Part shown: one piece after another, positions 2,638 through 14,016 of the stretch
How positions within the stretch are numbered: position 1 is the first letter of the stretch
Layout: every line of letters starts with the position of its first letter
Source: Candidatus Aerophobota bacterium
GTDB taxonomy: Bacteria; Aerophobota; Aerophobia; Aerophobales; B3-G15
Reading direction: 5' to 3'
Length of the DNA: 14,299 nt
Assembly (NCBI GenBank): GCA_014859225.1
Contig: JACUUP010000029.1
Span: 1 to 14,299 of the forward strand
Notes under the pieces: model-generated
What the model was told of the DNA's origin: nothing
The model's input: the letters and a program-made list of their open reading frames with translations, nothing else
Databases searched by the model: none
Made by a program: the position numbers and the translations under genes

Positions 2638-3348
2638 ATGCAAAATATTCAAAGAAAAGATAGATTGATTTTGGCTCTGGATGTTGATACCGAGGATGAG
2701 GCAAAGAAGCTGGTTTTAGATTTGAGGGAGTGGGTGAGTTTTTTTAAAGTAGGAATGAGACTTTTTTTTAGATACGGTCCTCAAATTGTGAACTCTGTGC
2801 AGAGGGCAGGAGGGGCAATCTTCCTTGATGCAAAACTGCACGATATACCTTCTGTGGTGGAGGCTGCGGTTAGAGTGATTGGTAGAATGGGTGTGAGTAT
2901 GGTAACCATCCATACCCTGGGTGGAAAAGATATGATGAGAAGGGCAAAAGAAGCGGCAAAAGAGGAGAGCCCCCGCATGAAAGTGCTGGGAGTTACCCTT
3001 TTGACGTCTATGGACGATAGAATTTTAAGAGAGGAGCTTGGCGTAAAAGAGAGTGTACAGGAAAAAGTGCTTTTTCTTGCCTTGAGGGCACAAGAAGCGG
3101 GATTAGATGGAGTTGTTTGCTCGGGCAGGGAGGTTAGAATTCTAAGAGAGTCCCTGGGTCCTGATTTTATCCTGGTTGTTCCGGGTATAAGAAAGGAAAA
3201 AATAGAAGGTGATGAACAAAAAAGAGTTTTAACCCCCACCGAGGCGATTAAACAGGGAGCCGATTATCTGGTGATTGGTCGTCCCATTCTGCAAGCCTCT
3301 AACCCTGCTACTGTGGCAAAAGAGATGGCGTCAGGTTTTGACATTTGA
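2638..3348 (+). CDS. pyrF: Orotidine 5'-phosphate decarboxylase
   Basis: This enzyme decarboxylates OMP to UMP, the last step of de novo pyrimidine synthesis, in the cytosol. The protein is a short TIM barrel of about 236 residues, normal for the bacterial family. Visible landmarks are LALDVDT near the N-terminus, the FKVG strand, the catalytic D-x-K-x-x-D array (DAKLHD, about residues 64-69), TIHTLGG, and a C-terminal phosphate-binding VIGRPI. I prefer ATG 2638 because GGTGA lies 5 bases upstream. A GTG at 2629 is in frame and overlaps the helicase stop (GTGA) but has no good ribosome binding site. Either way the gene is probably translated in one transcript with the helicase-nuclease. The last codons and TGA stop fall inside a dispersed repeat (3327-3353), so the C-terminal SGFDI tail may be a replacement of the ancestral end. 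Confidence 0.95.
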   Translation: MQNIQRKDRLILALDVDTEDEAKKLVLDLREWVSFFKVGMRLFFRYGPQIVNSVQRAGGAIFLDAKLHDIPSVVEAAVRVIGRMGVSMVTIHTLGGKDMMRRAKEAAKEESPRMKVLGVTLLTSMDDRILREELGVKESVQEKVLFLALRAQEAGLDGVVCSGREVRILRESLGPDFILVVPGIRKEKIEGDEQKRVLTPTEAIKQGADYLVIGRPILQASNPATVAKEMASGFDI

Positions 3349-3353
3349 CATTC
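3327..3353 (-). repeat. Dispersed inverted repeat, left arm (copy A) flanking the restriction-modification cassette
   Basis: Bases 3331-3352 match the reverse complement of 4928-4949 at 19 of 22 positions without gaps. The copy covers the end of pyrF including its stop codon. Related copies lie at 6160-6192 and 13960-14016. It contains two TTGACA hexamers (3338-3343 and 3345-3350) pointing towards the downstream genes. Confidence 0.75.
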
Positions 3354-3421
3354 AGAGTTTTTGTGGTACTTTAGAGATACCATGGCAAGACAATTGAGAC
3401 TATCATTACTGATGGGGAAAT

Positions 3422-3898
3422 ATGATAAACATTAAAGACATCCAGTCAAAATACAAAAAAGCCATTCTTGAATCCCAAAAGCTTTATGCAGATAGAAGGG
3501 CAAAAGATACTGCTGGTGCCGTAAGATATACTAAAGGCAAAATAGTTGAAGATATCACGAAAGATATTATAAAAATAGCATGGTCAAAAATATCCTCCGA
3601 TGAAACTAGACTGAGAATGGACAAGAAGAAAGTTGTTATTAAAACAAATGATGAAATATATAAATTGTCTCAAGATATACATATTTATATTGATAATATA
3701 TTCAAAATCAGTGTTGAGTGTAAGTCTTATACTGAAGTCGCCATGTATAAAAGAGTTTTGATTGACGCGAGTCTCTTAAAAGAGGCTGTGCCTACGATAA
3801 ATGCTTTTTTCATAATCCAATTAGAAAATTTTTTAAACCGCTACGAGATGAAAGACTTAATTATGCCATTGAACTATTCAGAAAAGCAATGCTTATAG
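3422..3898 (+). CDS. Type II restriction endonuclease-like protein (PD-(D/E)XK), probably frame-interrupted at its C-terminus
   Basis: The 158-residue product has a predicted PD-(D/E)XK core: Asp91, then Glu99-Cys-Lys101 in the strand ISVECKSY, followed by a helix with YKRVLIDASLLK. This is the usual arrangement of restriction endonucleases. I do not recognise the specific family or target. GGGG about 5-8 bases before ATG 3422 can serve as ribosome binding site. The protein is short for a complete enzyme. Its last 20 residues (after LENFLN) look less natural than the overlapping -1 frame, which is open from 3766 and reads ERLNYAIELFRKAM into the next gene. A one-base loss in the T6 run (3829-3834), a sequencing error, or -1 frameshifting at 3832-3838 would explain this. 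It overlaps the methyltransferase by 10 bases, supporting a restriction-modification pair. Function inferred, not proven. Confidence 0.6.
   Translation: MINIKDIQSKYKKAILESQKLYADRRAKDTAGAVRYTKGKIVEDITKDIIKIAWSKISSDETRLRMDKKKVVIKTNDEIYKLSQDIHIYIDNIFKISVECKSYTEVAMYKRVLIDASLLKEAVPTINAFFIIQLENFLNRYEMKDLIMPLNYSEKQCL
3832..3838 (+). promoter_or_regulatory. Possible -1 ribosomal frameshift heptamer T TTA AAC
   Basis: In the endonuclease frame the codons read TTA (3833-3835) and AAC (3836-3838) preceded by T, which fits the X XXY YYZ rule. UUUAAAC is a well-known slippery heptamer in coronaviruses. A -1 slip here enters the frame that continues without a stop through the methyltransferase to 4851, giving a predicted 476-residue fusion. 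I see no clear downstream stem-loop or upstream Shine-Dalgarno-like stimulator. Bacterial sites more often use A-rich heptamers, so chance or a homopolymer deletion remains quite possible. Confidence 0.3.
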
Positions 3899-4851
3899 GT
3901 CAAGATATAGAAAAAGGAGGTATAGGGGAGCCATTTTCTGATTATAAAACTTCAAGGGCATATCCTGATGCTAAACTTTTAAGAAGAGAGAGAAAAGTCG
4001 TTGACCGAGTTGAAAAGGAGAAAATACGAGGAGGAACCAAGGAGTTAACTAAAATACAATCTGAAATTTCTAACATTGATGTTTCTGCGATAGTAAATAA
4101 AATTGTATGTGGTGATAGTGAGAATATATTAAAAGAATTTTCAGATAATTTTGTTGATATTATTATTACATCGCCACCATATAATTTTGGATTGAATTAT
4201 AAAAATGATAAAAATAAAGATGCTATATACTGGCACGATTACTTTGATAAATTGAATAGAATTTGGAAAGAGTGTTATCGTGTGCTAAAGCCAGCTGGGA
4301 GAATTTGTGTTAATATTCAACCATTATTCTCCGATTATATGCCCACCCACCATATTATCTCAAAGCAATTGTTAGACTTAGGATTGCTCTGGAAAGCTGA
4401 GATACTTTGGGAAAAACACAACTATAATTGTAAATATACTGCGTGGGGCAGTTGGAAAAGTCCAAGTATGCCTTATTTGAAATATACATGGGAATTTATT
4501 GAAGTATTTTGTAAAGAATCGCACAAGAAAAATGGCGAATCTAATAAAATAGATATTACTGGAGATGAATTTAAGAACTGGGTTTATGCAAAATGGGACA
4601 TCGCACCAGAAAGCAATATGAAAAAATATAATCATCCGGCGATGTTTCCGGAAGGATTAGTGGCAAGATTATTAAAGTTGTTTAGTTATCAAGAGGATAT
4701 TGTTTTAGACCCATTTAATGGGGTAGGCACTACCACATTAGTAGCATATAAATTAAGAAGGAAGTATATCGGTATAGACATTTCAGAGGAATATTGTAAA
4801 ACTGCAGAAAAGAGATTAAAAGACGAACAAAAGCAAACGAGATTATTTTAA
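3889..4851 (+). CDS. Beta-class DNA methyltransferase (TSPPY type, N4-cytosine or N6-adenine)
   Basis: Transfers a methyl group from S-adenosylmethionine to an exocyclic amino group in DNA, probably protecting host DNA from the neighbouring endonuclease. Catalytic motif IV (TSPPYNFG, residues 94-101) precedes the SAM-binding motif I (DPFNGVGTT, residues 274-282, then KYIGIDISEEY), the beta-class order. SPPY is commonest in N4-cytosine enzymes, but N6-adenine enzymes with it exist, so the modified base is open. The catalytic domain starts near residue 68 (IVNKIVCGDS). The preceding 65 or so residues are a charged segment that may really be the C-terminal part of the endonuclease. ATG 3889 has no convincing ribosome binding site. 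AGGAGG at 4029-4034 is not followed by an in-frame ATG, GTG or TTG at useful distance. Start therefore uncertain, family certain. Composition is A+T-rich compared with the flanking genes. Confidence 0.85.
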   Translation: MLIGQDIEKGGIGEPFSDYKTSRAYPDAKLLRRERKVVDRVEKEKIRGGTKELTKIQSEISNIDVSAIVNKIVCGDSENILKEFSDNFVDIIITSPPYNFGLNYKNDKNKDAIYWHDYFDKLNRIWKECYRVLKPAGRICVNIQPLFSDYMPTHHIISKQLLDLGLLWKAEILWEKHNYNCKYTAWGSWKSPSMPYLKYTWEFIEVFCKESHKKNGESNKIDITGDEFKNWVYAKWDIAPESNMKKYNHPAMFPEGLVARLLKLFSYQEDIVLDPFNGVGTTTLVAYKLRRKYIGIDISEEYCKTAEKRLKDEQKQTRLF

Positions 4852-4927
4852 CAAGTTTAAGGAAAGAATAAGAAAAGATAAAAAATTAATGAAGTTAAAG
4901 GCTGACCTTGTAGAAGCTTTAAAATCA

Positions 4928-4954
4928 AATGTCAAATGCTAAGACCTGACCCCC
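4928..4954 (+). repeat. Dispersed inverted repeat, right arm (copy B)
   Basis: Inverted relative to the copy at the end of pyrF. It contains AAGACCTGACCCC, which recurs in variant form at 6160-6192 and 13984-14016. The upstream ATG of ribD (4936) lies inside it. Confidence 0.75.
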
Positions 4955-6036
4955 AAATGTATATGAGGATGGCGCTGAGACTTGCCCGGAGAGGAGAGGG
5001 GAATATTTCTCCTAATCCCATGGTGGGAGCGGTTATAGTAAAAAATGGGAAGGTAGTAGGGAAAGGTTACCATAAATACTTTGGTGGACCTCATGCGGAA
5101 GTTGAAGCTATAAAGAATGCAGGAGTAAAAGCAAAGGGGGCTACTCTTTTTGTAACGTTAGAGCCCTGTTCTCACTTCGGGAAAACCCCACCTTGCACCC
5201 AGGCAATAATTAAGGCGGGTATCAAAAAAGTAGTAGCGGCAACTTTTGACCCCAATCCACTCAATCGGGGAAAAGCATTTGAGATACTGAAAGAAGCTGG
5301 AATAGATACAGAAGTCGGTGTGCTGGAGGAGGAAGCAAAAAAAGTCAACCAGTACTTTTTTAAGTATATCAGCACAAAAATTCCGTATGTAACGGTCAAA
5401 GCGGCAACAAGCCTTGATGGAAAGATAGCGACCTTCAAAGGGGAATCAAAGTGGATAACCTCTGAGCGGTCCCGAAGGTGGGGTAAAAAGCTTCGTGATA
5501 AGGTGGATGCTATTTTAGTGGGTATCAATACCGTGATGAAAGATGACCCTGAGCTTTTACCTTTAAAAAATAAAAAAAGATATCTGCGCGTAGTTTTAGA
5601 TACACATCTGAAAATACCTTTGGGTGCAAAAATCCTTGAGCAACAGTCTAATTTTCCTACCCTTATATTTACCGGCTCCCACACTGGTATAGATAAAATG
5701 AAAGTTCTGACAGAAAAGGGTGTAGGGGTAAAAATTGTTGAGGAAAAAGAGGGTAGGGTTAATTTGGGGAAAGTTTTGCAAGAGCTTGGCAAAATGGAAA
5801 TTGCATCTCTTCTGGTAGAAGGAGGAGGAGAAGTTATTGCCTCTTTTATAAAAGAAAATCAGGTAGATGAGCTATTTTTATTTTTATCTCCCTGCATAAT
5901 CGGGGGAAAAGAAGCACCCACCTGGGTTGAGGGTGAAGGCTTTTGCCTGCTCAAAGATGCAACAAAAGTTAAGATAGAGAGTATACGAAGAGTAGGTGAG
6001 GATGTCTTACTGCGGGGCAAGGTTTTGAGTATTTGA
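4936..6036 (+). CDS. ribD: Bifunctional diaminohydroxyphosphoribosylaminopyrimidine deaminase / 5-amino-6-(5-phosphoribosylamino)uracil reductase
   Basis: Catalyses the second and third steps of riboflavin synthesis from GTP: pyrimidine ring deamination, then NADPH-dependent reduction of the ribosyl side chain. The N-terminal cytidine-deaminase-like domain carries the zinc site H53-A-E55 plus P77-C78 and C87 (PCSHFGKTPPC). The C-terminal reductase domain begins near residue 151 (YVTVKAATSLDGKIA) with SKWIT and the later LLVEGGGEV nucleotide-site segment. Length 366 matches the family (E. coli 367). ATG 4936 lies within a dispersed repeat; ATG 4957 (MYMRMALRLA) corresponds better to where the family's conserved part begins. 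Neither has a clear ribosome binding site, so the 5' end may have been altered by the repeat. No other rib genes are adjacent, and the gene stands alone between the cassette and the convergent asd operon. No FMN riboswitch is visible upstream. Confidence 0.95.
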   Translation: MLRPDPQMYMRMALRLARRGEGNISPNPMVGAVIVKNGKVVGKGYHKYFGGPHAEVEAIKNAGVKAKGATLFVTLEPCSHFGKTPPCTQAIIKAGIKKVVAATFDPNPLNRGKAFEILKEAGIDTEVGVLEEEAKKVNQYFFKYISTKIPYVTVKAATSLDGKIATFKGESKWITSERSRRWGKKLRDKVDAILVGINTVMKDDPELLPLKNKKRYLRVVLDTHLKIPLGAKILEQQSNFPTLIFTGSHTGIDKMKVLTEKGVGVKIVEEKEGRVNLGKVLQELGKMEIASLLVEGGGEVIASFIKENQVDELFLFLSPCIIGGKEAPTWVEGEGFCLLKDATKVKIESIRRVGEDVLLRGKVLSI

Positions 6037-6046
6037 TACTTAATAC

Positions 6047-6069
6047 AAAAAGGGGACAGACCCCTTTTT
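6047..6069. terminator. Palindrome, copy 1: possible bidirectional terminator after ribD
   Basis: A5-G4, loop ACAGA, C4-T5: a perfect 9-bp stem, 10 bases after the ribD stop. It is followed by T tracts read in either direction and lies between two convergent genes. It recurs exactly at 6094-6116, so it is also a repeat element. Terminator function is inferred from shape and position. Confidence 0.55.
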
Positions 6070-6093
6070 GGGTACTCAGTGAACCAAAGTAAG

Positions 6094-6116
6094 AAAAAGG
6101 GGACAGACCCCTTTTT
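6094..6116. terminator. Palindrome, copy 2: possible bidirectional terminator
   Basis: Identical 23-base copy of the palindrome at 6047-6069, offset by 47 bases. Read on the minus strand it can end the asd operon transcript. Confidence 0.5.
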
Positions 6117-6128
6117 GATGGGTTTGAT

Positions 6129-6159: not shown

Positions 6160-6192
6160 TTGTGGAATGTCAAATGCTCAAGCCCTGACCTC
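6160..6192 (+). repeat. Dispersed repeat (copy C) beside the end of asd
   Basis: Bases 6160-6182 are identical to 13984-14006, and the following CCTGACC resembles the arm shared with 4928-4954. It ends 3 bases from the asd stop codon. Confidence 0.75.
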
Positions 6193-13959: not shown

Positions 13960-14016
13960 GGGTCAGGTCTTGACTTTTAAGTTTTGTGGAATGTCAAATG
14001 CTCAAGACTAGACCCC
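13960..14016. repeat. 57-base inverted-repeat element (copies D and E) between binding protein and permease genes
   Basis: Left arm 13960-13973 (GGGTCAGGTCTTGA) pairs with 14002-14015 at 12 of 14 positions around a 28-base middle. The right half contains the same 23 bases as 6160-6182. It begins directly after the binding-protein stop codon and ends 8 bases before the permease start codon. Transcribed, it could fold into a hairpin inside the operon and lower expression downstream of the binding protein, a known role for palindromes in such operons. Confidence 0.75.

Follow-up and report, generated by a model that had tools for sequence, protein, structure and literature searches.

We found that the pyrF and ribD genes of a Candidatus Aerophobota bacterium enclose a cassette that is probably a decayed, transposase-less TIRtron, with a broken restriction-modification (R-M) gene in place of the middle of its transposase gene. 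TIRtrons are characterized by terminal inverted repeats (TIRs) with the motif GGGGWSAS and by the TIRYT transposase (Di Nocera and co-workers 2013, PMC3733652). The TIRYTs mostly belong to TnpA-Y1 subclass 2.1 and carry C-terminal HTH domains (PMC3733652; Quentin et al. 2018, PMC6006769). The stretch analysed here (the window, 14,299 nucleotides) is the entire contig C84 of a 1.8-Mb metagenome-assembled genome of 273 contigs that is ~91% complete. It was compared with the genomes of Aerophobota (17, its own included) and with G030, G055 and G087 from other phyla. The genes are ordered uvrD-pyrF-[cassette]-ribD-asd, the last two being convergent. As initially annotated, A+T-rich R-M-like coding sequence lies between two biosynthetic genes: an endonuclease (REase) piece and a methyltransferase (MTase) gene between pyrF and ribD, at 31-35% GC between the arms vs about 40-46% nearby. 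The UvrD-like helicase ORF (68-2632) matches an intein splicing domain in its N-terminal part (PF14890, residues 59-154), and the contig seems to start within this putative intein-bearing helicase. The window contains the following copies of the repeat:

3327-3352, + strand: left terminal inverted repeat, GGCGTCAGGTTTTGACATTTGACATT, overlapping the pyrF stop codon
4928-4953, + strand: right terminal inverted repeat, containing the ATG (4936) of the ribD ORF
6166-6192, + strand: third copy of the arm, unpaired, next to the asd stop codon and absent from the initial annotation
13960-14016, + strand: short paired form of 57 bases (miniature, one arm degraded)

The inverted match first noticed between 3331-3352 and 4928-4949 (19/22 identical) was reproduced when recomputed, and reaches 22/26 between 3327-3352 and 4928-4953. 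By chance, about 0.06 pairs at 22/26 and about 0.5 pairs at 19/22 are expected in the 14-kb window alone, so that the match within the window is weak by itself. The arms are recognized as a real dispersed family by genome-wide counts against zero controls: with three mismatches or fewer, the right-arm motif is found at 10 places in its own genome (none for the reversed control), and the arm is present in 8 of the 17 phylum genomes (controls 0). The repeat is thus dispersed, as had been supposed. As terminal inverted repeats, the arms have the consensus GGGGTCAGGTCTT-N-ACATTTGACATT. The head of the right arm, GGGGTCAG, fits GGGGWSAS, and that of the left arm, GGCGTCAG, differs from it by one change. 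The left arm covers the stop codon of pyrF and contributes its last codons, and the pyrF ends differ in other Aerophobota. The ribD ORF (4936-6036) begins with an ATG inside the right arm, as it also does in G005 at the same junction, and the element may supply the start of this ORF. Misassembly of the cassette was considered and appears unlikely, since the two arms are not identical and measure just 26 bp each. Between ribD and asd, at 6046-6117, AAAAAGGGGACAGACCCCTTTTTG occurs twice in inverted orientation, both copies being nearly self-palindromic. Their GGGGACAG also fits the TIRtron motif GGGGWSAS, and a second TIR family may exist in the window.

The arms were then related to transposase genes. 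Arms facing outward in the same way enclose Y1_Tnp genes in contig C77 of the same genome and in G003:C22. Broken Y1 transposase copies lie between such arms in G003:C18 and G008:C109, and in G005:C232 a nearly complete transposase gene begins just inside a left arm and is cut off by the end of the contig. Intact TIRtrons of ~1.02-1.03 kb with these ends are found in other phyla (L199, L200 and L201, from G030, G055 and G087), and L230 (G055:C79) is a further intact copy. Among the three Y1_Tnp matches in the window's own genome, none is bounded by exactly the arm version of the window, so any helper transposase in that genome is hypothetical. Miniatures of 74-127 bp with paired arms occur frequently, most of all in G005. 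An intact miniature is predicted to fold into a long hairpin (z -9.3), and the degraded 57-base form in the window folds more weakly (z -1.8). A DDE-type MITE was rejected as the source of the repeats, as the genes between the ends are Y1/HUH transposases and the flanks of 24 pairs, inspected by eye, carry no evident target duplication. At the sequence level, these comparisons show that the repeats in the window are the terminal inverted repeats of a TIRtron, a Y1/HUH transposon with a TIRYT transposase. A Y1 transposase is thus associated with the repeat, which the initial annotation had suggested looking for. The short form at 13960-14016 had been correctly recognized as the same repeat; it matches the paired miniatures and is a miniature derivative of the TIRtron family, and the suggestion that it may be the empty form of the cassette is not supported.

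Two stretches just inside the arms resemble the ends of the transposase gene:

3353-3405, + strand: TIRtron leader and first eight transposase codons, encoding MARQLRLS at 3382-3405
4853-4939, + strand: probable transposase 3' coding remnant, ending ..KFKERIRKDKKLMKLKADLVEALKSNVKC and reading in frame into the right arm

The start codons at 3382-3405 are ATG GCA AGA CAA TTG AGA CTA TCA. The leader and start match a G005 element at the 5' end of ribD (shuffle p about 0.0002) as well as the transposase genes of G005 (p about 0.002) and G001 (p about 0.007), showing by alignment that the transposase 5' end is present in the window. The 3' end, comprising the last ~29 codons, is probably present as well. 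The remnant matches the transposase end of G005 (p about 0.002) and, in fixed register, that of L199 (0.007), and gapped alignments with the transposase ends of L186 and L199 gave p about 0.1 in shuffle tests. A profile search placed it at the top of 533 window fragments, but with E=0.33. The transposases of the intact TIRtrons L199 and L200 end in SNVKT, which is coded across the arm. Both remnants are short and a complete Y1/HUH gene is absent between the arms of the window. Since only the transposase start and its probable end are left, the window copy is a TIRtron derivative rather than a complete TIRtron. The initial annotation had proposed mobile-element ends around R-M genes with no transposase of their own. 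That much agrees with a TIRtron family, whereas the ends are not plain MITE or REP ends, as the 5' end and probably the 3' end of the transposase gene are still inside them. Alternatively, two independent solo TIR copies might flank a horizontally acquired R-M gene by coincidence. Single arms are indeed common, and arm pairs around ordinary genes occur (a tmRNA gene in G030:C86 and a transporter gene in G003:C34). However, unrelated solo repeats would not be adjoined by a transposase start and a probable transposase end in the right frame and place, and we regard such a coincidence as quite improbable.

The R-M homology stops about where the transposase remnants begin. It comprises the following features:

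3408-4855, + strand: homology to single-gene REase-MTase fusions of other phyla (alignment with L129, L130, L131 and the G003 copy)
3422-3898, + strand: ORF1, 158 aa, N-terminal REase part truncated by a frameshift (PADLOC REase_II PDLC03499, E=1.5e-23)
3826-3838, + strand: point at which ~154 nt were deleted between short direct repeats rich in T, gaaaatttttt / gaatattttaaacc
3889-4851, + strand: ORF2, 320 aa, open N6/N4 DNA methyltransferase half (PF01555, E=1.2e-40; PADLOC MTase_II PDLC03353, E=2.6e-71)

A D...ECK motif can be read by eye in ORF1, and the Pfam family search gave no match for this ORF. The closest full relatives are single REase-MTase ORFs of 527 aa with 75-76% identity, from Stahlbacteria, Ratteibacteria and another MAG (L129-L131). 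Their coding stretch is 1584 nt long vs 1430 nt in the window. Comparison with these single-ORF relatives shows that the R-M gene of the window was split by the ~154-nt deletion and a frameshift. The initial annotation had spoken of R-M genes in the plural, but the relatives have one fused gene and the copy in the window is broken. The matching intact REase and MTase of a type II system are not found in the window, where the MTase frame is open and the REase part truncated. Restriction has therefore probably been lost with the endonuclease half, whose methylase partner might survive as an orphan. A programmed -1 frameshift at TTTAAAC joining ORF1 and ORF2 was also considered, as the frames fit, and then set aside: the intact relatives encode the fusion as a single ORF, and ~154 nt are missing at this place in the window. 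In G003, a copy of the MTase is about 90% identical over most of its length, whereas the ribD of G003 is only 56% identical to that of the window, indicating horizontal transfer of the MTase. The REase part is gone from this copy, a frameshift interrupts it, and its neighbourhood is a different one, in which a lone arm is found at the end of the contig. No arm pair was found in the 28 loci of R-M relatives examined.

The explanation that we consider probable is as follows. A Y1/HUH single-strand transposase (TIRYT) would naturally act on the 26-bp terminal inverted repeats. As for how the R-M gene entered the TIRtron, we infer that the middle of the transposase gene gave way to a single-chain type II R-M gene acquired by horizontal transfer. 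The loaded element would be mobile, in principle, only in trans through a related TIRYT. A later microhomology deletion of ~154 nt would have cut the REase-MTase fusion in two, leaving a probably dead endonuclease half and a methylase half that was possibly retained as an orphan. A putative cargo gene inside a TIRtron is supported by these comparisons. A stronger version, close to the initial annotation, is that the TIR ends and the R-M genes move jointly as a unit, with a TIRYT helping in trans. The ends look like transposase substrates, a second TIRtron carries foreign cargo (G001:C88), and good arms enclose a toxin-antitoxin pair in G003:C98. Nevertheless, no second copy of the loaded element was found in its own genome or the 16 other phylum genomes, the R-M relatives have no arms around them, and the G003 MTase copy lies in other surroundings. 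Moreover, a G005 element at the same ribD junction has no R-M gene, which fits an element that preceded the R-M gene. R-M genes moving between these ends are therefore not borne out, and we consider a joint mobile unit unlikely.

We then investigated the gene order in the relatives. In these genomes asd and ribD are neighbours, and pyrF is convergent and downstream of ribD in those with pyrF on the same contig (G001, G013, G011 and G012). In the window, arms occur at the pyrF/cassette, cassette/ribD and ribD/asd junctions, and recombination between repeats may have shaped the region. Thus, the arms might be rearrangement breakpoints, at which an inversion or deletion between TIRtron copies joined pyrF, the R-M gene and ribD. 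This is suggested by ribD being inverted against asd in the window, compared with the adjacent asd and ribD and the convergent pyrF of the relatives, with an arm at each junction. Such breakpoints would account for the neighbours but not for the transposase remnants adjoining the R-M gene. We see rearrangement as a tenable, if not the favoured, account; it is compatible with the decayed TIRtron, and both can hold. At the start of ribD, G005 has a 193-bp element that contains the transposase start, has no R-M gene, and places its right arm as in the window. This could reflect an earlier insertion event at this position or a separate one. An exact empty site for the window unit, proposed as a check in the initial annotation, was not found in its own genome or the 16 other phylum genomes. 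The element is absent at ribD in G001 and G002, but their gene order differs from that of the window.

The family of the decayed TIRtron shares with described TIRtrons the GGGGWSAS motif, a Y1/HUH transposase between inverted TIRs, and dispersed single and paired TIRs. The related copy L186 also has the C-terminal Bac_DnaA_C domain (PF08299), whose corresponding region is missing in the window. The window copy differs in that little of the transposase gene is left and its place is taken by an R-M gene; the type of element is known but its condition unusual, the replacement having itself decayed. REPINs and RAYTs (Bertels & Rainey 2011, PMC3116915; PMC2817692) likewise comprise short inverted doublets whose repeat is also found at the borders of a Y1 transposase gene. 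REP repeats, however, are headed by a GTAG or GTGG tag (Nunvar et al. 2010, PMC2817692), whereas the arms in the window begin with GGGGTC, have no such tag, and are 26-bp TIRs rather than REP palindromes. R-M genes flanked by complete IS copies have been described, and their movement proposed (PMC3031569). These too lie beside mobile-element sequences, but the R-M gene in the window lies inside one element and replaces its transposase. The fusions L129-L131 are similar over the whole gene, but are intact and have no TIRs nearby. Word searches of the TIRtron papers PMC3733652 and PMC6006769, for cargo in the former and passenger in the latter, gave no occurrence. No description of a TIRtron with cargo was found in the literature on RAYT/TIRYT elements and on R-M genes in MITEs, of which our coverage was partial, leaving novelty unproven.

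Other arm pairs were compared with that of the window. In G001:C88 (L186), perfect 26-bp arms of the same TIRtron family surround transposase residues 1-42, a foreign ORF of 308 aa, and residues 96-326. Two further pairs enclose other genes, and the foreign ORF is listed with them:

L186 1461-2387 (G001:C88): ORF of 308 aa where the TIRYT gene should have its HUH region
L188 2747-3424 (G003:C98): antitoxin-like ORF plus ParE-type toxin, enclosed by good outward arms, with no transposase remnant
L229 622-1417 (G030:C86): 796-bp arm pair around a predicted tmRNA gene

The 308-aa ORF has no Pfam or PADLOC match. The pair in G003:C34 surrounds an EamA transporter gene. The initial annotation had asked whether other repeat pairs enclose different cargo; the foreign ORF in G001:C88 suggests so, but the pair in G030:C86 encloses a host tmRNA gene at a spacing like that of the window. 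Arm pairs were therefore rejected as general proof of cargo, and a pair without transposase remnants is no evidence of it. It is conceivable, but in our estimate rather improbable, that the TIRtrons of Aerophobota are cargo carriers in which addiction-type genes (R-M, toxin-antitoxin) take the place of the transposase, with TIRYTs of other copies mobilizing the loaded elements in trans. TIRtrons are little studied. Two copies from one bacterial family in which a foreign gene stands in for part of the transposase would demonstrate that genes can be carried by these single-strand elements. TIRtron cargo would also give R-M genes a further route of travel, and the window copy illustrates the decay of a restriction gene towards an orphan methylase. 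In contig C98 of the window's own genome (L021 61-1281), HicB-like and MazF-like fragments, named by eye, lie between two arms, of which the left is weak and the right clear.
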